Under the pieces are notes generated by a model. It did no database searches. It had not been told where the DNA came from and saw only the letters and a list, made by a program, of their open reading frames with translations. The position numbers were made by a program, and so were the translations under genes. DNA of 57,652 bases from Gammaproteobacteria bacterium (GTDB lineage Bacteria > Pseudomonadota > Gammaproteobacteria > UBA6429 > Thiohalophilaceae): contig JASBTR010000109.1 in NCBI GenBank assembly GCA_030148325.1, positions 1 to 57,652 of the forward strand, written 5' to 3'. Positions 12,911 through 56,805 of the stretch are shown here, piece by piece (within the stretch, counting starts at the first letter, position 1; each line of letters begins with the position of its first letter).

Positions 12911-13834
12911 ATGGACAAGCGTGCGCAAAGCCTGATCGGGAAATTTATCCGCAAGCTGCGAACGGAACGTCGTTATTCACCCCGGACACTGGATGCCTAT
13001 CAACGTGATCTACAGAAGCTTGCCCGTTTCTGTGAGCAGGCCGGGATTAAAAACTGGGGGATGCTGGAGCAAACACATATCCGCCGCTATGTTGCGGGCC
13101 GCCACCGTCAGGGCCTCAGTAGTAAAACACTGCAGCGGGAACTGTCCGCCTGCCGTAGTTTTTTTGCCTGGTTGCTGAAAAACGGACAACTGGAATACAA
13201 CCCGGCCATCGATGTGCGTGCGCCCAAAGCGGCGCGTAAATTGCCCGAGACACTGGATGCTGATCAGGCTATGCAACTGCTGGATACAGATCAGGCTGAT
13301 CTGCTGCTGGTGCGCGATCACGCCATACTGGAACTGCTTTATTCTTCTGGCCTGCGGCTGTCGGAACTGGCCGCACTGAATGTGACTGATCTGGACATGC
13401 AGGAGTCGATGGTCGATGTCATCGGCGGCAAGGGTGGTAAAGATCGGCGCCTGCCTGTTGGTCGCAAGGCGCAGGCGGCGCTGAAACGCTGGCTGCATCG
13501 GCGCAATGAACTGGCGCCTGCAGAAAAAGCTGCGCCAGCGGAGTCGGCCCTGTTCCTGAACAGTCGGGGAACACGCATGGGCGCGCGCAATATTCAGCTG
13601 AGGGTGAAAGACTGGGCGCGCAGGCAGGGGCTGGACAAGAACCTGCATCCACACATGCTGCGCCACTCCTTCGCCAGTCACATGCTGGAGTCGAGCCATG
13701 ACCTGCGTGCGGTGCAGGAACTACTCGGACATGAAGATATCGCCACCACCCAGATCTATACCCATCTTGATTTCCAGCACCTGGCCGAGGTGTACGACAA
13801 GGCCCATCCGCGTGCGCGCAAGAAAAAAAGTTGA
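12911..13834 (+). CDS. xerC: Tyrosine site-specific recombinase XerC
   Basis: A 307-residue recombinase that acts with XerD at dif to resolve chromosome dimers. An N-terminal SAM-like DNA-binding domain (1-100) is followed by the catalytic domain with the full set of active residues: Arg149 (SGLRLSE), Lys177 (GGKGGK), His248 and Arg251 (HMLRHSF), His274 (LLGHED) and the nucleophile Tyr283 (QIYTHL). Its place after dapF-DUF484 separates it from integrases of mobile elements. The stop codon overlaps the TTG start used by the histidine kinase. Confidence 0.96.
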   Translation: MDKRAQSLIGKFIRKLRTERRYSPRTLDAYQRDLQKLARFCEQAGIKNWGMLEQTHIRRYVAGRHRQGLSSKTLQRELSACRSFFAWLLKNGQLEYNPAIDVRAPKAARKLPETLDADQAMQLLDTDQADLLLVRDHAILELLYSSGLRLSELAALNVTDLDMQESMVDVIGGKGGKDRRLPVGRKAQAALKRWLHRRNELAPAEKAAPAESALFLNSRGTRMGARNIQLRVKDWARRQGLDKNLHPHMLRHSFASHMLESSHDLRAVQELLGHEDIATTQIYTHLDFQHLAEVYDKAHPRARKKKS

Positions 13835-15594
13835 AGGCGAGGGTGAAACAGAAAAAACCATCAACGCAAAGACGCGAAGACGCCAGGAAACCCTTTGCGA
13901 CCTTTGCGTCTCTGCGACTTTGCGTTGAAAAAATCTGTTCGCCGGTTTCTGGATTGATGTTGTTAGCCTGTCTGTTCAGCCATTTTGCCCATGCGGATCT
14001 TCTTCTAAACGAGCAGGAACAGGCCTGGCTAAAGGCGCATCCGGTGATTCGATTTGCAATCGATCCTGATTTTGCCCCCTTTGAATGGTTGACGGAAGAT
14101 GGCGAGTACCGGGGTATGGCGGCAGACTATATGGCACTGGTGGAAAAAAAACTCGGGATTCGTTTCCAGCGGGTGCCTGCAGACAGCTGGTTAGACGTCA
14201 TGGCCATGATTCGCAGGCATGAAATAGATATGCTGCCGGCGCTGGCGCGCTCGCCACAGCGGGAAAAATACCTGCTCTTCACCCCACCCCATATCATTGT
14301 GCCCGGGGTGCTGATTTCGGCGAAGGACTATGACAGCATCGAACAGTTGCAGGGAAAAAAGGTCGTCGTCGTGGCCGGTTATGTCTGGGATGATCTGATC
14401 GGCCACCACAGGACGGATGTGCGCCTGATACGGGTGGAAAATATGCGCGATGGAATGGAGTTAACGGCGCTGGGTGCGGTGGATGCCATGGTTAGTGACA
14501 TGGCTTCGGTGACGTACGCCCTGCGCGAAAATGCGTACAGCAATTTGCGCATTGTCAGTTATCTGCCGCAAAGGCTGGAGCTGGGTTTTGCCCTGCGCGG
14601 TGACTGGGGCATGTTGCGTAATATCCTGGCGAAAACACTGGCCAGCCTGACCGTGAAAGAGAAAGAAACCATAACAGGAAAATGGCTGACGCTGGAAGAA
14701 ACCGGTTTCTGGCACAGGCCAACCTTCTGGTACGGTATTTTATCCGGCATGGCCGTATTGTTGTTGATCCTGAGCGTGATGTTGATCTGGAATCGGGTGC
14801 TCAAACATCAGGTGGTCCTGCGTACCCGGGCACTGGAGAATGCGCAGTTGCAGCTGATTCACGCAGAAAAAATGGAATCGATTGGCCGCCTGGCTGCCGG
14901 TGTCGCCCATGAAGTCAAGAACCCGCTGGCGATTATCCAGATGGCATCGGATTTTCTTGCCAAAGAAGTTGCCGACAACAGGCAGGCCCACGAGGTTGTT
15001 CGAGATATTGATAATGCCGTCGAGCGGGCTAATACGGTGATACGGGGATTGCTTGATTTTTCCCGGGACGAGAAACTCGATATGCGCTCAGCGGACATCA
15101 ACGAGGTCATTGAGCGCGCCCTGCAACTGGTGGCCTATGAATTGCGCCAGCATCATATTGAGGTTGTGACCACACTGGGGACGGCCTTACCCCCCATGCA
15201 AATTGATTCGGGCAAGCTGCAACAGGTGTTTGTCAACCTGTTCATGAATGCGGCGCAGGCGATAAAAGCGCATGGTCGCCTGCAGATCAGCAGCGGTTTA
15301 CACCGTATCGCCGGAGTGCATGACTTACGGCGGGATCGCGATCGTCGCTTCCGCCTGGGTGAGGAGGTTATCCTGGTGGAGGTAGCTGACACCGGTCCGG
15401 GCATTCCTGAGGCTTCCCAGGAAAAGATATTTGATCCGTTTTTTACCAGTAAGCCAGTGGGTGAAGGAACGGGGATCGGCTTGTCCGTATCGCAGAACAT
15501 CGTCAACCTGCATCATGGTATTCTGGATGTCCACAACGGGACGGACGGGGGCGCGGTATTCACAATGTTGTTTAAAATAAACAGGGAGCTGTAA
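13831..15594 (+). CDS. Histidine kinase with periplasmic SBP_bac_3 sensor domain
   Basis: A 587-residue membrane kinase if started at the TTG overlapping the xerC stop. Residues 58-290 form a solute-binding-protein family 3 domain, followed by a transmembrane helix (299-321), HisKA with the phosphorylated His360 in AHEVKNP, and HATPase_c (NLFMNAAQA, DTGPGIPE, GTGIGLS). The sensor probably binds an amino-acid-like ligand in the periplasm. A signal peptide ends at about HFAHA (55). The region before it is encoded by a family A repeat (13863-13926). The ATG at 13957 (codon 43) gives a leader with no basic residues, so the true start is uncertain. A receiver gene follows two bases later. Confidence 0.85.
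   Translation: MKARVKQKKPSTQRREDARKPFATFASLRLCVEKICSPVSGLMLLACLFSHFAHADLLLNEQEQAWLKAHPVIRFAIDPDFAPFEWLTEDGEYRGMAADYMALVEKKLGIRFQRVPADSWLDVMAMIRRHEIDMLPALARSPQREKYLLFTPPHIIVPGVLISAKDYDSIEQLQGKKVVVVAGYVWDDLIGHHRTDVRLIRVENMRDGMELTALGAVDAMVSDMASVTYALRENAYSNLRIVSYLPQRLELGFALRGDWGMLRNILAKTLASLTVKEKETITGKWLTLEETGFWHRPTFWYGILSGMAVLLLILSVMLIWNRVLKHQVVLRTRALENAQLQLIHAEKMESIGRLAAGVAHEVKNPLAIIQMASDFLAKEVADNRQAHEVVRDIDNAVERANTVIRGLLDFSRDEKLDMRSADINEVIERALQLVAYELRQHHIEVVTTLGTALPPMQIDSGKLQQVFVNLFMNAAQAIKAHGRLQISSGLHRIAGVHDLRRDRDRRFRLGEEVILVEVADTGPGIPEASQEKIFDPFFTSKPVGEGTGIGLSVSQNIVNLHHGILDVHNGTDGGAVFTMLFKINREL
13863..13926. repeat. Family A palindrome inside the 5' part of the kinase gene
   Basis: AACGCAAAGACGCGAAGACG (from 13863) pairs imperfectly with GCGTCTCTGCGACTTTGCGTT (ending 13926). 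Unlike most family members, this one overlaps an open reading frame. On the plus strand it reads SLRLCV just before the signal-peptide core of the kinase. Confidence 0.7.
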
Positions 15595-15596
15595 TA

Positions 15597-15980
15597 ATGA
15601 AAAAACGTATTCTGGTGGTGGATGACGAACCTGCCCTGACGCGCATGGTAAAAATGAACCTGGAGCGCACCGGTGATTACGAAGTTCGCACCGAAAATCA
15701 GGGTGCGAAGGTCGTCACTGCGGTACGCGAGTTCTGGCCCGATCTGATTCTTCTGGATGTAATGATGCCGGACATGTCCGGTGATGAAGTTTCCCAGCAA
15801 TTACGAGAGGATCCTGTTCTGGCTGGAATCAAGGTCGTATTTATGACCGCGATAGTTACCAAAGAAGAAACCAGTGAAATGGGCGGTAACATTGGCGGCA
15901 ACGAGTTTCTGGCCAAGCCGGTGAAGACTGAGGAGCTGATCGCCACCATCGAAAGGCTGCTGGGGGCAGGATCATCATAA
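15597..15980 (+). CDS. Stand-alone response-regulator receiver protein
   Basis: A 127-residue protein with only a CheY-like receiver domain. The acidic pair D9-D10, the phospho-acceptor Asp54 (LILLDVMMP), a Thr in FMTA and the conserved Lys in LAKPVK are present. It has no output domain, so it either passes phosphate on or acts through protein contacts. It starts two bases after the kinase stop and is almost certainly its partner. It ends in TAA and is followed by repeats. Confidence 0.92.
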   Translation: MKKRILVVDDEPALTRMVKMNLERTGDYEVRTENQGAKVVTAVREFWPDLILLDVMMPDMSGDEVSQQLREDPVLAGIKVVFMTAIVTKEETSEMGGNIGGNEFLAKPVKTEELIATIERLLGAGSS

Positions 15981-15989
15981 ATGGTTTGT

Positions 15990-16208
15990 ATTAAACGCAA
16001 AGAACGCGGAGGCGCAAAGAAAAAAAGTTAATAAACCACCCCACCGCAAGCAGCGGGAAGTTCTATTGTAGGTGGGCTTCTACCCTTCGGGCACAGGTGA
16101 GCCGCACAGGACGCCAGGTTTTAGCCAAACAATCCCAGGCGTCCTTTGCGTCCTGGCGGTTCAGATTGTTCCTTCGACTAATGCCCCGTAGCTTGCTGCG
16201 GGGTGGTT
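15990..16208. repeat. Mosaic of family A and family B repeat fragments
   Basis: The stretch starts with AACGCAAAGAACGCGGAGG (family A unit), then a CCACCCCACCGCAAGCAGCGGG end, a GGACGCCAGG/CCTGGCG pair (16116-16164), and a closing GCTTGCTGCGGGGTGG that complements the CCACCCC end. It looks like one element nested inside another. No gene is seen between 15981 and the tetR operator. Confidence 0.7.
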
Positions 16209-16225
16209 TATTTAACAAATAAATA

Positions 16226-16249
16226 CTGAATATTTTATTGAATATTCAG
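16226..16249. promoter_or_regulatory. Inverted-repeat operator upstream of tetR
   Basis: CTGAATAT (16226-16233), an 8-base spacer and ATATTCAG (16242-16249) form a perfect inverted repeat just before the tetR coding region, overlapping the predicted -35 box. A 24-base relative with the same half-sites lies at 17067-17090, in front of the RND gene. TetR repressors bind such symmetric sites and commonly repress their own gene. That this TetR binds here is inference. Confidence 0.65.
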
Positions 16250-16266
16250 CAATGCTGGGCTATAAA
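16238..16266 (+). promoter_or_regulatory. Putative tetR promoter
   Basis: TTGAAT (16238-16243), a 17-base spacer and TATAAA (16261-16266) closely match the sigma-70 consensus. The -35 box lies within the operator. Initiation would be expected at about 16273, next to the ATG codons at 16268 and 16274, so the message could be leaderless. Confidence 0.5.
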
Positions 16267-16267
16267 T

Positions 16268-16882
16268 ATGGCCATGCAGCCAAAACCCATTGAAACCACC
16301 CCGCAGGACATTCGTGCTGGCATTCTTGATGCGGCGGAAGCCCGTTTCCGTATCTATGGTGTGAACAAGACCACGATGGCGGAAATTGCTCGTGACATGG
16401 GTATGTCGGCCGCGAATCTTTATCGTTATTTCAGGAACAAGCAGGATATCGCTGCGGCCTGTGCCCAGCGCTGTATCAGTACCCAGGTGGATCTGCTGCG
16501 TGAGGTGGTGCGCACGCCCGGGCTTTCAGCGGCGGAAAAGCTGGAACGCTGCGCCCTGGAGATGCTGCGTTTTACCTGGGAAACGGCGCATGATCAGCCC
16601 CGGATCAACGAACTTGTCAACCATGTCATTCTGGAACACAGCAACATCGTGCATGAAAAGACGCAGGAATCCTGCTCCCTGCTGGCGGAGGTGCTGGCTC
16701 AGGGCAATGAATCGGGCGAATTTAAGGTGGCGGACGTGGTGAAAACGGCGGAAACCGTGTATGCCGCGCTGAAAATGTTTCACGTACCGATATTCATGAG
16801 TCTCTATGAGCTTGATGAACTCATGTTGCGAGCGCGGGACGTGGTTGCCCTGCTTATCGCTGGTCTGCACGGGCGGGCCTGA
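16268..16882 (+). CDS. TetR/AcrR family transcriptional regulator
   Basis: A regulator of about 204 residues. The N-terminal helix-turn-helix is typical of TetR (ILDAAEARFRIYGVNKTTMAEIARDMG, then AANLYRYFRNK); the C-terminal ligand domain is all helical. ATG codons at 16268 and 16274 are possible starts, and no Shine-Dalgarno sequence is visible. A TTG at 16238 is rejected because it lies inside the operator. Matching operator half-sites upstream of this gene and of the RND gene suggest that it controls itself and the export operon. Confidence 0.9.
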   Translation: MAMQPKPIETTPQDIRAGILDAAEARFRIYGVNKTTMAEIARDMGMSAANLYRYFRNKQDIAAACAQRCISTQVDLLREVVRTPGLSAAEKLERCALEMLRFTWETAHDQPRINELVNHVILEHSNIVHEKTQESCSLLAEVLAQGNESGEFKVADVVKTAETVYAALKMFHVPIFMSLYELDELMLRARDVVALLIAGLHGRA

Positions 16883-16927
16883 ACCGGCGCTAAGCAGTGC
16901 AAAATTTTAATCTCTGTGGGTTAAATT

Positions 16928-17052
16928 CCCCGCTGCTTGCAGCGAAAATCAGTAGGGGCGGGTTCGCCCGCGAATAGTTTGAGGTTTGACCAACCGTTTT
17001 CGCGAGCGAGCCCGTTCCTACGATTTAGTACCCTGTTCGCTTGCGGCGGGGT
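16928..17052. repeat. REP-like palindromic element, family B copy 2
   Basis: CCCCGCTGCTTGCAGCG opens and CTTGCGGCGGGG closes the element; between them lie GCGGGTTCGCCCGCG and TCGCGAGCGAGCCCG palindromic cores. It separates tetR from the RND operator and promoter and may also end tetR transcripts. Confidence 0.8.
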
Positions 17053-17066
17053 TGTTTATTTGGAGC

Positions 17067-17090
17067 CTGAATATTAATCATATTATTCAT
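17067..17090. promoter_or_regulatory. Second TetR-type operator, upstream of the RND operon
   Basis: The 24-base site starts CTGAATATT and ends ATTATTCAT. It has the same length and the same half-sites, apart from two positions on the right, as the perfect inverted repeat at 16226-16249. It lies 43 bases before the RND start codon, where a bound repressor would block initiation. Confidence 0.6.
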
Positions 17091-17132
17091 CCTTCATTGC
17101 CTAAGAATAAATAATAAAGGGGAGAGATGATC

Positions 17133-19568
17133 ATGCGGCGACTGGAAGAGCACTTTGGTGAATGGGTGTTGAAATATCGCTGGCCGGTAATTATCGTTTG
17201 TCTGATTCTGGTATTCCTTTGCGCTTCGGGCATGAAGAATCTCGCCATGTCGACCAACTACCGCGTGTTTTTCAGCGCCGACAATCCCCAGCTGCTGGCC
17301 TTCGATGCGCTGGAAAATACCTATACCAAGAATGACAACGTGATGTTCGTGCTGACCCCGAAAAACGGGGATGTCTTCAGCCGTGATGCGCTGGAGGCGG
17401 TGGAGACGCTGACCAGCAAAGCCTGGCAGCTACCCTATTCTATCCGTGTGGATTCCATCAGCAATTTCCAGCACACCGAGGCAGAAGGTGATGATCTGGT
17501 TGTGCGTGACCTGTATGAAAATGCACAGCAGCTCAGTGATGCAGAACTGAAAAAAATCCGGCAGGTGGCGCTGGCCGAACCCCTGCTGGTGGGAAGGCTG
17601 ATTTCACCGGATGCGCGGGTGACAGCGGTCAACGCCACGATTCAGCTTCCCGGTAAAAATGAAATGACCGAGGTGCCGGAAGTGACCGCCGCAGCACGCC
17701 AGATGGCGGAGGAAATTCGTACGGCCTACCCGGATATGGAGGTCAGACTGACGGGCATGGTGCTAATGAACAATGCCTTCTCGGAAGCCTCCATGGGCGA
17801 CATGCAGAGTCTGGTGCCACTGAGTTTTCTTTTTATGATGGTGTTTCTCGCCGTGCTGTTGCGCGATTTTCAGCGCGGTCTGCCGGCGTTCATTCTGGTT
17901 GCGGGCGCGCTGGCGGGGATCGGGGTGCTGCTAAGCATGGGCGGCCTGCCACCGCCGGCGGTGGCGGTCTTGCTCCTGGTTGGGTTTGGCCTGCTGCTGT
18001 GGTCGTTTCCGGCAACCATGTCGACCCTGCTGGTGATCATGTTGTCCATCATTGCGGCGATGGGTATCGGTGGGCATATCGGCTTTCCGATCACGCCGCC
18101 ATCAGCTTCGGCGCCGACCATTATTCTCACCGTCGCGATCGCCAGTTCGGTGCATATCCTGATTACGCTGTTATTTGAGATGCATCATGGCAAGGACAAG
18201 CGTGCTGCTATTAATGAAAGCCTGCGGATTAATCTGCAGCCGGTGTTTCTCGCCAGTGTCACCACCGTGATTGGTTTTCTGAGCATGAACTTTTCTGAAG
18301 TGCCGCCTTTCCGACATCTGGGAAATTTTGTCGCGTTTGGGGTGGTGGCTTCCTTTATTCTCTCGGTTAGCTTCCTGCCTGCGCTGATGTCCCTGCTGCC
18401 AATTAAGGTGCGTACAATCGAACATGGCAAGGATACCCTGATGATCCAGCTGGGTGATTTTGTCGTACGCCAGCGCAGTCGCCTGTTAGTCGGGATGTCT
18501 GCGCTGGTGATTACCCTGGTGCTCTTTATTCCTCGCAATGAACTGAATGACGTCTTCGTGCATTACTTTGATGAAACGGTGCCCTTTCGTGTGGATGCCG
18601 ACTACACCACCAGCCATCTTACCGGCCTGTATCTGGCCGACTATTCGCTGCCTGCGGGTGAAAGCGGCGGGATTAGCAATCCGGCGTTTCTGCGTGAGGT
18701 GGCTGACTTCGCCGAATGGTGGCGACAGCAGACGGAAACCCTGCACGTTAATGCGTTTACGGACACCATGAAACGCCTGAACATGAACATGCACGGTGAT
18801 GATCCGGCCTGGTATCGGCTGCCGGATGAGCGAAATCTGGCTGCACAGTACCTGCTGCTGTATGAAATGTCCCTGCCCTACGGACTGGATCTCAACAACC
18901 AGATCAGCGTGGACAAGGCCAAAACTCGGCTCACGGTTTCCCTGAAAACACTGTCGAGTAATGAAGTTCTCGGACTGGATGAGCGTGCGCAGGAATGGCT
19001 GGAAAAGAATACCCGCATCATCAAACACACGCTGGGCAGTGGTCCAACCCTGATGTTCGCGCACATCGGCCAGCGCAATATCATCAGCATGCTGGGTGGC
19101 ACTACGGTTGCGCTGATCATGATCTCCATGATTCTGATCTTCGCCCTGCGCTCACTCAAGATTGGCCTGATAAGTATGCTCCCCAATCTTGTCCCGGCGG
19201 CGATGGGGTTTGGACTCTGGGGCCTGCTGGTGGGTGAGGTCGGGCTGGCATTGTCGATCGTCACCGGCATGACGCTGGGTATCGTAGTGGATGATACGGT
19301 GCACTTTCTCAGCAAGTATCTGCGCGCCCGGCGAGAAAACGGGCTGAACAGTGAAGACGCTGTGCGCTACGCGTTTAGTCATGTCGGTCGGGCGCTGATT
19401 ACCACCTCGATCGTGCTGGTGGCCGGGTTCATCGTACTGGCCTTTTCCAGCTTCAAGCTGAACGCCGGCATGGGTATGTTGACAGCCATTGTTATTACCT
19501 TTGCGCTGCTGGCAGATTTATTTCTGTTGCCACCGCTGTTAATGAAACTGGATGGGGAAAAAGCATGA
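17133..19568 (+). CDS. RND-superfamily (MMPL-type) exporter
   Basis: An inner-membrane protein of 811 residues built from two repeats, each with one helix, a large periplasmic domain and a bundle of helices. The second-half helix contains GMTLGIVVDDTVHF, the proton-relay acidic pair typical of the group; the matching first-half helix (AIASSVHILI) lacks acids. This subgroup is predicted to move lipids or other hydrophobic compounds out of the inner membrane. GGGGAG at 17119-17124 sits eight bases before the ATG at 17133 and directly abuts the ATG at 17127, so 17133 is preferred. Its stop overlaps the start of the LolA-like gene. Confidence 0.9.
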   Translation: MRRLEEHFGEWVLKYRWPVIIVCLILVFLCASGMKNLAMSTNYRVFFSADNPQLLAFDALENTYTKNDNVMFVLTPKNGDVFSRDALEAVETLTSKAWQLPYSIRVDSISNFQHTEAEGDDLVVRDLYENAQQLSDAELKKIRQVALAEPLLVGRLISPDARVTAVNATIQLPGKNEMTEVPEVTAAARQMAEEIRTAYPDMEVRLTGMVLMNNAFSEASMGDMQSLVPLSFLFMMVFLAVLLRDFQRGLPAFILVAGALAGIGVLLSMGGLPPPAVAVLLLVGFGLLLWSFPATMSTLLVIMLSIIAAMGIGGHIGFPITPPSASAPTIILTVAIASSVHILITLLFEMHHGKDKRAAINESLRINLQPVFLASVTTVIGFLSMNFSEVPPFRHLGNFVAFGVVASFILSVSFLPALMSLLPIKVRTIEHGKDTLMIQLGDFVVRQRSRLLVGMSALVITLVLFIPRNELNDVFVHYFDETVPFRVDADYTTSHLTGLYLADYSLPAGESGGISNPAFLREVADFAEWWRQQTETLHVNAFTDTMKRLNMNMHGDDPAWYRLPDERNLAAQYLLLYEMSLPYGLDLNNQISVDKAKTRLTVSLKTLSSNEVLGLDERAQEWLEKNTRIIKHTLGSGPTLMFAHIGQRNIISMLGGTTVALIMISMILIFALRSLKIGLISMLPNLVPAAMGFGLWGLLVGEVGLALSIVTGMTLGIVVDDTVHFLSKYLRARRENGLNSEDAVRYAFSHVGRALITTSIVLVAGFIVLAFSSFKLNAGMGMLTAIVITFALLADLFLLPPLLMKLDGEKA

Positions 19569-20344
19569 AAACGATTACAGGTATTCTCATACTCTTAATG
19601 TTGTCGAATTATATTCAGGCTGAAACAGCCGAAGAAAAGGGGTTGGCGATTGCTGTGGAAGCAGACAAACGTGATAGCGGCTGGGGCGATCAAAAAGCGT
19701 CTATGCAGATGATACTGCGAAATCGTCACGGCGATAAAAGCATTCGCGAGATGCACACCAAATCTCTGGAAGTCGAGGGCGATGGCGATAAAACGCTGAT
19801 AGTCTTTGATCGCCCGCGTGATGTGAAAGGCACTGCCTTTCTCAGCTTTACCCATGCGATAAAACCGGATGATCAATGGATCTATCTACCGGCCTTAAAA
19901 CGAGTCAAACGCATTTCATCCAGCAACAAGTCCGGTCCTTTCATGGGCAGTGAGTTTGCCTATGAAGACATCTCTTCCCAGGAAATTGAAAAATACAGCT
20001 ATAAGTTCATCAAGGATGATGTTTATGAAGGGCGGCCGGTTTTTGTTATGGAACGTTTTCCACAATACAAAAACTCGGGCTACACACGCATGATCACCTG
20101 GCTGGACAAGGAGACCTACAGTCCGCTTAAAATTGATTTTTACGATCGCAAGAACAGCCTGCTGAAAACGCTGACCTACCATGATTATAAACAGTACCTG
20201 GGCAAGTACTGGCGCGCGGACCGTATGGAAATGGTCAACCATATCACCGGCAAGAGCACGACCCTGCTGTGGAAAGATTATAAGTTCAATAACGGCTTAA
20301 CAGATCGCGACTTCGACAAGAACAGCCTGAAGCGCGCGCGATAA
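19565..20344 (+). CDS. LolA-like outer-membrane lipoprotein-sorting family protein
   Basis: A 259-residue exported protein with signal peptide MKTITGILILLMLSNYIQA. The sequence around WIYLPALKRVKRISSSNKSGPF is typical of the LolA-like group annotated as outer membrane lipoprotein-sorting protein, whose half-barrel fold carries acyl chains across the periplasm. It overlaps the exporter gene by four bases (ATGA). Next to an MMPL-type exporter and an outer-membrane barrel, it is a good candidate for the periplasmic shuttle of a lipid or lipid-like cargo. The cargo cannot be read from the sequence. Confidence 0.88.
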   Translation: MKTITGILILLMLSNYIQAETAEEKGLAIAVEADKRDSGWGDQKASMQMILRNRHGDKSIREMHTKSLEVEGDGDKTLIVFDRPRDVKGTAFLSFTHAIKPDDQWIYLPALKRVKRISSSNKSGPFMGSEFAYEDISSQEIEKYSYKFIKDDVYEGRPVFVMERFPQYKNSGYTRMITWLDKETYSPLKIDFYDRKNSLLKTLTYHDYKQYLGKYWRADRMEMVNHITGKSTTLLWKDYKFNNGLTDRDFDKNSLKRAR

Positions 20345-20388: not shown

Positions 20389-20539
20389 CGCAGAGAACGC
20401 AAAGGCGCAGAGACGCAGAGACGCAGAGCAATGAAATTGTTGTTTTTCTCTGCGCCTCTGCACCGTGAGAATCTCGCTTCGCGAGCTTTATTCGGTACTT
20501 CTTACGCTTTGCTCCGGTCGCGCCTTTGCGTTCTCTGCG
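20389..20539. repeat. Family A palindrome overlapping the 5' end of the barrel gene
   Basis: CGCAGAGAACGCAAAGGCGC (20389-20408) and its exact 20-base complement (20520-20539) flank an interior with further CGCAGAGA units and a GCTTCGCGAGC hairpin. The start codon of the outer-membrane protein lies inside the element, and the right arm is translated as RLCVLCV. Confidence 0.85.
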
Positions 20540-21717
20540 TTAATTACGTGCTGCTTGCTGCTGTCGCGCCATTGTCGGCTGTGGCGCTGGAGCAGGATTT
20601 CTCCGGTTATGTAGGGCTGGAATATCGAAATTTTCTCTCTCAACCTTCCGACCCTCGCCAGCAGGGCGATAATCTTTCCCTCTCTATCGAGCCGGAATAT
20701 TATTCTGAATGGGATAACGGCCGCCAGAGTTTTACTTTCAAACCCTTTGCCCGTCTGGATCAGGGCGATGCTGAACGCAGTCATTGGGATATTCGTGAAA
20801 TGATGTGGGTGAAGGCGGCCAATGACTGGGAACTGCATGCCGGTGTTGGCAAGGTATTCTGGGGTGTCACCGAAGTGGTGCATCTGGTGGATATTGTCAA
20901 CCAGACTGATCTGGTGGAAGATTTTTATCTTAATGAGCGGCTGGGACAGCCGATGCTCAACCTGATTCTGATAAGAGACTGGGGCACACTGGATCTGTTT
21001 GTGTTACCGGGATTCCGTGAGCGTACCTTTCCCGGTGTCAAAGGGCGACCGCGCAGCATTCCCTGGGTGGATACGTCACAGGCCGTTTATGAATCCTCGC
21101 AGGGTAAGCGGCATGTGGATTATGCGGCACGCTGGTCGCAGACGCTGGGTGACTGGGATCTGGGTGTAAGTTATTTCAACGGCACCAGCCGTGAACCGCG
21201 TTTCACCCTCGGCAGCAGCGGGGGGGAAGCCGTCTATATTCCGAATTACGATTTGATCCGACAGTATTCCACCGATATACAGGCTACTCTGGATGCCTGG
21301 TTGCTGAAATTCGAGGCATACTATCGCCGCGGTCAGGGGCCGGCCTATTACGCCTCGACCGGTGGCATTGAATACAGTTTTTACGGCGTGTTTGAAAGTA
21401 ATGCAGATTTAGGTATCCTGGTCGAATATATGTATGATGAACGGGGAGACAGGGCACCTACACCGTTTCAGAATGATTATTTCATCGGCACGCGCCTGAC
21501 ACTGAACGATGAACAGAGCAGCGAGCTGCTGGGTGGGATCGTGCGTGATTTCAGGTATAACCGCTATTATTTTCTGCTCGAAGCCAGCCGCCGGCTCGGT
21601 GATGACTGGAAACTATCTGTAAATGCGCTGAGCTTTGCCAGGCCGCCGATTACCGATCCGGGCTATTCATTTCGCAACGATAATTACCTGCAACTGGAAC
21701 TGCAGTATTATTTCTAG
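20431..21717 (+). CDS. Outer-membrane beta-barrel protein of the export module
   Basis: A 428-residue protein that I do not assign to a named family. After the leader it alternates aromatic and polar residues as in outer-membrane strands, and it ends in LQLELQYYF with the terminal phenylalanine that marks BAM substrates. The first 40 or so residues (up to RLCVLCV) come from a family A repeat; the hydrophobic core of the signal peptide (YVLLAAVAPLSAVA) follows. No internal ATG gives a better leader; a GTG at codon 40 would leave it without basic residues. It lies 86 bases after the LolA-like gene and probably forms the outer-membrane step of the same pathway. It ends in TAG. Confidence 0.75.
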   Translation: MKLLFFSAPLHRENLASRALFGTSYALLRSRLCVLCVNYVLLAAVAPLSAVALEQDFSGYVGLEYRNFLSQPSDPRQQGDNLSLSIEPEYYSEWDNGRQSFTFKPFARLDQGDAERSHWDIREMMWVKAANDWELHAGVGKVFWGVTEVVHLVDIVNQTDLVEDFYLNERLGQPMLNLILIRDWGTLDLFVLPGFRERTFPGVKGRPRSIPWVDTSQAVYESSQGKRHVDYAARWSQTLGDWDLGVSYFNGTSREPRFTLGSSGGEAVYIPNYDLIRQYSTDIQATLDAWLLKFEAYYRRGQGPAYYASTGGIEYSFYGVFESNADLGILVEYMYDERGDRAPTPFQNDYFIGTRLTLNDEQSSELLGGIVRDFRYNRYYFLLEASRRLGDDWKLSVNALSFARPPITDPGYSFRNDNYLQLELQYYF

Positions 21718-56664: not shown

Positions 56665-56734
56665 AACCGCCAAGACGCAAAGGATGCCAAGTTTTAGCCA
56701 AACAATTCCTGGCGTCCTTTGCGTCTTGGCGGTT
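56665..56734. repeat. Family A-type palindrome, perfect 20-bp arms
   Basis: AACCGCCAAGACGCAAAGGA (56665-56684) and its exact complement (56715-56734) with a 30-base loop. The loop sequence GTTTTAGCCAAACAATTCC also occurs near 16.12 kb. GCTTGCTGCGGGGT follows at 56764. Confidence 0.85.
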
Positions 56735-56805
56735 CAGATTGTTCCTTCACTAATACCCCGTAGCTTGCTGCGGGGTCATTTATTCAGGGCTCCCCGTGTT
56801 GATAG

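Follow-up and report, generated by a model that had tools for sequence, protein, structure and literature searches.

The locus lies in a window of 57,652 nucleotides (the whole stretch of DNA analysed) and comprises a repressor gene, hereafter tetR, followed in the same direction by the genes of a putative export operon. The genes were as follows:

16274 to 16882, plus strand: TetR/AcrR-family repressor gene with TetR_N and TetR_C_27 domains (alternative ATG at 16268).
17127 to 19568, plus strand: RND/MMPL-type inner-membrane transporter of 813 aa, with an SD-like gggagag ahead of it (alternative ATG at 17133).
19565 to 20344, plus strand: LolA-like periplasmic protein (PF17131, also DUF1329), overlapping the RND stop.
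20431 to 21717, plus strand: possible, presumptive outer-membrane protein of the same operon.

The TetR protein matched PF00440, the N-terminal TetR HTH (48.6 bits for a cut-off of 24), and PF17935 TetR_C_27, an all-helical ligand-binding C-terminal domain (54.1 bits for a cut-off of 26.1). Its predicted model (pLDDT 88.2) had ten helices and a fold like that of QacR, EthR, and FadR; QacR was among the top, tied matches (Z 18.5), with EthR and FadR within the tied rows or slightly lower. The RND protein was recognised by Pfam MMPL (102.2 bits, cut-off 20.5), and its score of 139.4 bits against TIGR00921 HAE3 lay below the cut-off of 351.9. The 20431-21717 product had no Pfam match at E ≤ 0.001 and no NCBIfam match.

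The candidate regulatory features around tetR were located as follows:

16220 to 16225, no strand: left outer half-site of O1, TAAATA, 5 of 6 positions identical to TGAATA.
16226 to 16249, no strand: candidate operator O1, a perfect CTGAATAT-N8-ATATTCAG with 0 mismatches.
16238 to 16243, plus strand: -35-like box TTGAAT of the tetR promoter, inside O1, in its N8 and its right half.
16261 to 16266, plus strand: -10-like box TATAAA of the tetR promoter, at a 17-bp spacing from the -35-like box.
16925 to 17060, plus strand: REP/MITE-like repeat of about 136 bp, between tetR and O2.
17030 to 17052, plus strand: terminator-like hairpin, T-rich in its tail, at the repeat's end and just before O2.
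17067 to 17090, no strand: candidate operator O2, CTGAATATTAATCATATTATTCAT, the O1 pattern with 2 mismatches at the same length.
17079 to 17084, plus strand: possible -10 CATATT of an RND promoter, inside O2, weak and picked out by eye.
17091 to 17096: right outer half-site of O2, CCTTCA, 4 of 6 positions.

The original prediction had described two matching 24-bp operators with the same half-sites. The existence of two matching sites was confirmed: O1 and O2 were the sole places in the window with three mismatches or fewer to CTGAATAT-N8-ATATTCAG, and dinucleotide shuffles of the window (n = 100) contained a mean of 0.08 such sites, none of the 100 containing two. The equal length held and O1 was perfect, but the wording on the half-sites was slightly too strong because both mismatches of O2 fell in its right half. 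O2 ended 36 bp ahead of the RND ATG at 17127 and was thus, as described, just before that gene. The 2.99 Mb genome contained nine places with at most two mismatches, O1 and O2 included, and O1 was the sole exact one; the pattern written backwards, used as a control, gave 0 matches in the same 2.99 Mb. A palindromic site of this kind near the promoter of a tetR gene would be bound by one or more dimers of its own product.

A consensus of O1, TGAATATT-N3-TTGAWTATTCA, was drawn from loci of the order. In a sample of 40 genomes of the order, 21 possessed a tetR ortholog at E ≤ 1e-20, and in 20 of these an O1 that differed from the consensus at no more than one position lay upstream of the protein match, at a distance of 100 bp or less; in the 21st, the contig edge was inside tetR. 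No such site was present in the 19 genomes without the ortholog. This count is partly circular because the consensus came from the loci of that order, and the independent test was the count in the class, the window genome and G037 excepted. Among 369 gammaproteobacterial genomes, 43 had a tetR ortholog. The exact consensus was found in 16 of the 369, all with the ortholog and each time just upstream of the orthologous tetR, and in 0 of the 326 genomes without it. When one mismatch was allowed, the site was present in 28 of the 43 genomes with the ortholog versus 12 of the 326 without (Fisher 6e-22). In 27 of these 28 it was upstream of tetR, with an additional one elsewhere in G091, and in G197 it was at the O2 position. 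Most of the 12 matches in genomes lacking the ortholog were inside an ORF and two were beside one; the stretches around them contained no TetR homologue at E ≤ 0.01.

For a comparison of the surroundings, 63 loci were placed side by side, 62 of them with upstream DNA (all but L049). This set leaves out L054 (a TetR fragment of 29% identity, located at the end of a contig of G030), L062 (degraded O1), L064 (a 32-residue match), and weaker TetR matches, L026-L034 among them. O1 reached a score of at least 12 out of 14 in 57 of the 62 loci, and a good O1 was missing in the other five; shuffled sequence gave mean scores of 7.8-9.7. For 9 of the 57 sites, however, at least one of 200 shuffles of the region around the site scored as high or higher. 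Even orthologs with a protein identity as low as about 38% had the site upstream of their tetR, and matching operators were kept in many gammaproteobacterial families. The half-sites, whose loss from orthologous loci would have spoken against the original prediction, were thus retained at O1.

In 60 of the 63 loci an RND gene followed tetR on the same strand; of the three exceptions, two were on contigs that ended first. In L171 (genome G120), a tetR gene with a perfect O1 was followed by the LolA-like gene and, after it, by an ORF that looked similar by eye to the possible outer-membrane gene; an intervening RND gene was lacking. L046 and L047 had two consecutive RND homologues downstream of tetR. 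Within the order, 29 of the 40 genomes encoded an ortholog of the LolA-like protein (E ≤ 1e-30), and some of these genomes lacked this TetR.

The description of a 24-bp palindrome was borne out for the core, but the operator is often larger. In relatives, O1 was frequently accompanied by two further half-sites, a left-hand TGAATA and a right-hand TATTCA, each placed 7 bp outside, with mean matches of 4.96 and 4.05 out of 6, respectively, versus about 1.7 out of 6 at other offsets. The left outer half-site matched at 5-6 of 6 positions in 38 of 57 loci, the right one in 29, and both in 20. In the window, the right one was not recognisable at O1 (16250-16255, only 2 of 6). At O2, the right outer half-site matched at 4-6 of 6 positions in 16 of the 22 loci, and the left one was not kept in these 22. 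By analogy with QacR, the extra half-sites of O1 in many relatives may be enough for more than one dimer.

The predicted overlap of O1 with the -35 of tetR corresponds to the -35-like TTGAAT at 16238-16243, a consensus guess. The boxes of this promoter were missing from the output of a strict sigma-70 scan, which demands a T at the last -10 position. In the loci compared, a -35-like TTGAWT filled the N8 and the right half of O1, and a -10-like box usually followed 17 bp further on; the -10 was chosen as the best box over spacers of 15-19, and all these promoter boxes are consensus guesses, that of O2 above all. An ATG was found in 54 loci (ATG starts only), and in 41 of them the first one was 5-9 nt past the -10-like box. 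The window tetR was outside these 41, with its first ATG (16268) at 1 nt and its second (16274) at 7 nt. Leaders of 19-64 nt in eleven loci and of 13 nt in one indicate that the trait is not universal. An SD-like motif was found near 3 of 62 tetR starts versus 47 of 60 RND starts. The spacing of the ATG from the -10-like box and the scarcity of SD-like motifs suggest that the tetR mRNA is probably leaderless. Leaderless genes of the TetR family are known, including AcuR and the tetR of Tn1721.

A REP element had been predicted between the two sites, and the segment 16925-17060 is indeed repeated in the genome, with at least 42 matches, its own included (a lower bound, as 40 of 144 candidates were scored). 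The gap between tetR and the RND gene was 244 bp in the window versus 76-91 bp in three congeners, and the repeat was therefore probably inserted in the window lineage. As it ends in the hairpin 17030-17052, it may replace a tetR terminator of the kind found in several relatives. Six terminator-like sites were counted in the region, against a shuffle mean of 1.6. A separate terminator script gave rough counts, as it missed the window's own 17030-17052: it reported a hairpin for 11 of 29 loci with middle gaps, 0 of 23 with short gaps, and 1 of 8 with long gaps. A second repeat family occupied 16100-16212, just upstream of O1, contained a terminator-like hairpin at 16182-16205, and was 90% identical to 56673-56784 near the window end.

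The presence of O2 followed the size of the tetR-RND gap. With O2 counted as a score of at least 11 out of 14 within 130 bp of the RND gene, it was found in 22 of the 29 loci whose gap was 53-260 bp; among loci with shorter gaps the figure was 2 of 23, and none of the 8 loci with longer gaps had it. The difference between middle and short gaps was marked (Fisher 1e-6, a test that leaves out loci with a gap above 260 bp or without RND). The expectation that both sites would be conserved therefore stood for O1 and for O2 at middle gaps, but O2 is not universal: it was missing in 36 of the 60 loci with RND (21 of 23 short, 7 of 29 middle, and 8 of 8 long gaps). One long-gap locus, L187, had a score-12 site 313 bp ahead of RND. 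A GNAT-like acetyltransferase gene, recognised by eye, lay between tetR and RND in L046, L047, L049, and L051, which are four of the eight long-gap loci. The loci behind the association between gap and O2 are related by descent and so are not independent: nine or more changes of gap/O2 state were placed on the tree, and a phylogenetically independent test had no power because just two independent pairs on well-supported branches were usable. The simplest reading is that close tetR-RND pairs would be read from O1 alone, and that in spaced pairs RND would be served by a second promoter under a separate operator.

A search for further sites, suggested by the original prediction, bore on the size of the regulon. 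The best of the seven other near-matches in the window genome (C67:22194, 1 mismatch) overlapped the start codon of a gene named hisC-like by eye, and it was not found in the three congeneric genomes searched (66-92% complete). With a wider pattern applied to the window genome and these three congeners, O1 and O2 alone recurred, and no further place with the same sequence did so, recurrence being judged by sequence in incomplete congeners. A wider regulon found no support in these four genomes.

These observations support, as far as DNA comparison can, the earlier reading of two-site control by TetR; what the comparison itself establishes is the sites, their link with this tetR, the outer half-sites, and the association of O2 with gap size. 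We propose that the export operon (RND/LolA-like/outer-membrane) is very probably under the control of an autorepressing TetR that a ligand would release, forming a local, self-limiting efflux switch. In this model, TetR dimers on O1, at the -35 of tetR, and on O2, before RND, would keep both promoters shut. A ligand, probably hydrophobic or lipid-like, would enter the C-terminal pocket and release the repressor, and the RND, LolA-like, and outer-membrane proteins would then be made together with more repressor. A leaderless tetR mRNA would keep the amount of repressor low. Such an arrangement fits an ordinary self-regulating control circuit for an export pump.

It is also possible, but unlikely, that O1 is the true autoregulatory operator and that O2 in the window is a weak or decaying site, the RND operon being expressed mainly by tetR read-through or from a different promoter. 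The two mismatches of O2 and the 36 RND loci without a site of score 11 or more agree with this. Against it, O2 was kept in the four congeners at 12-13 of 14 positions, beginning 52-59 bp ahead of RND, despite the insertion beside it in the window lineage, and a terminator-like hairpin lies between tetR and O2. Certain members of the TetR family act as activators. That this TetR activates the RND operon, or regulates it in both directions, seems improbable to a greater degree still: such members exist and the RND promoter has only a tentative position relative to O2, but O1 sits on a -35-like box, the usual place for repression, and the closest folds include repressors such as QacR and EthR. 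Finally, that O1 and O2 are chance or repeat-borne palindromes can practically be dismissed, for although repeats lie just upstream of both sites, nine places at two mismatches or fewer stand against at least 42 repeat copies in the same genome, and the conservation, with the exact consensus in the class sample solely beside this tetR, contradicts it.

Two-site autorepression with ligand release, the preferred reading, can be compared with known systems. QacR represses an efflux gene, and its operator has room for two dimers; it is not known to regulate an RND/LolA operon. The predicted TetR model aligned with QacR over 180 residues (Z 18.5, rmsd 2.4) at 17% identity, and with the cooperative QacR-DNA complex 1jt0 at Z 16.2. 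The candidate parallel to the two-dimer operator of QacR lies in the 20 of 57 loci, counted above, with both outer half-sites at 5-6 of 6. The best-scoring NCBIfam model for the window TetR was the acyl-CoA-responsive, TetR-type FadR, at 33.8 bits, far below the cut-off of 200, and SaFadR with lauroyl-CoA was among the fold matches of the predicted model (Z 16.9). Unlike the FadR setting, no fatty-acid gene was recognised in the window operon.

AcuR of Rhodobacter sphaeroides is a TetR-family repressor with a leaderless mRNA starting from its AUG, determined by 5' RACE, an inverted repeat over its own promoter with the operator TAATAGAC-N6-GTCTATTA, and an operon for DMSP/acrylate catabolism (PMC3017554). 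The window system shares the TetR-family regulator and the promoter-overlapping inverted repeat; the leaderless start, established by 5' RACE for AcuR, is here a prediction, and the operon presumably serves export instead of DMSP/acrylate catabolism. For the export genes, the nearest parallel is AmeABCD of Castellaniella defragrans, an HAE3-type RND protein with LolA-superfamily and outer-membrane partners, AmeA being DUF1302 and AmeB DUF1329, for which monoterpene export has been suggested (PMC6394551). The two systems are alike in combining an RND protein, a LolA-like protein, and a candidate outer-membrane partner. They differ in that the LolA-like protein here was best matched by PF17131 and that DUF1302 was not found, the outer-membrane candidate having no Pfam match.

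We further suggest, tentatively and at slightly less than even confidence, that the locus belongs to a widespread and apparently undescribed gammaproteobacterial regulon. This regulon would combine a leaderless TetR repressor, a four-half-site operator stepped by 7 bp (TGAATA-N-TGAATATT-N3-TTGAWTATTCA-N-TATTCA), a conserved RND/LolA-like/outer-membrane exporter of lipids or hydrophobes, and repeated changes between a single common promoter and a pair of promoters, each having its own operator. A literature search of titles and abstract beginnings, with partial coverage, found no description of this regulator. A clean, conserved operator would give a direct handle on the pump and would identify members of the system by sequence alone; a ligand that releases TetR from O1 would in turn be a clue to the exported cargo.

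Upstream of tetR, positions 13831-15980 encode a sensor kinase with an SBP_bac_3 domain and a response regulator. This pair, absent from L037, was also found upstream of tetR in L035 and L036, which are two of the three congeners, and in L040.
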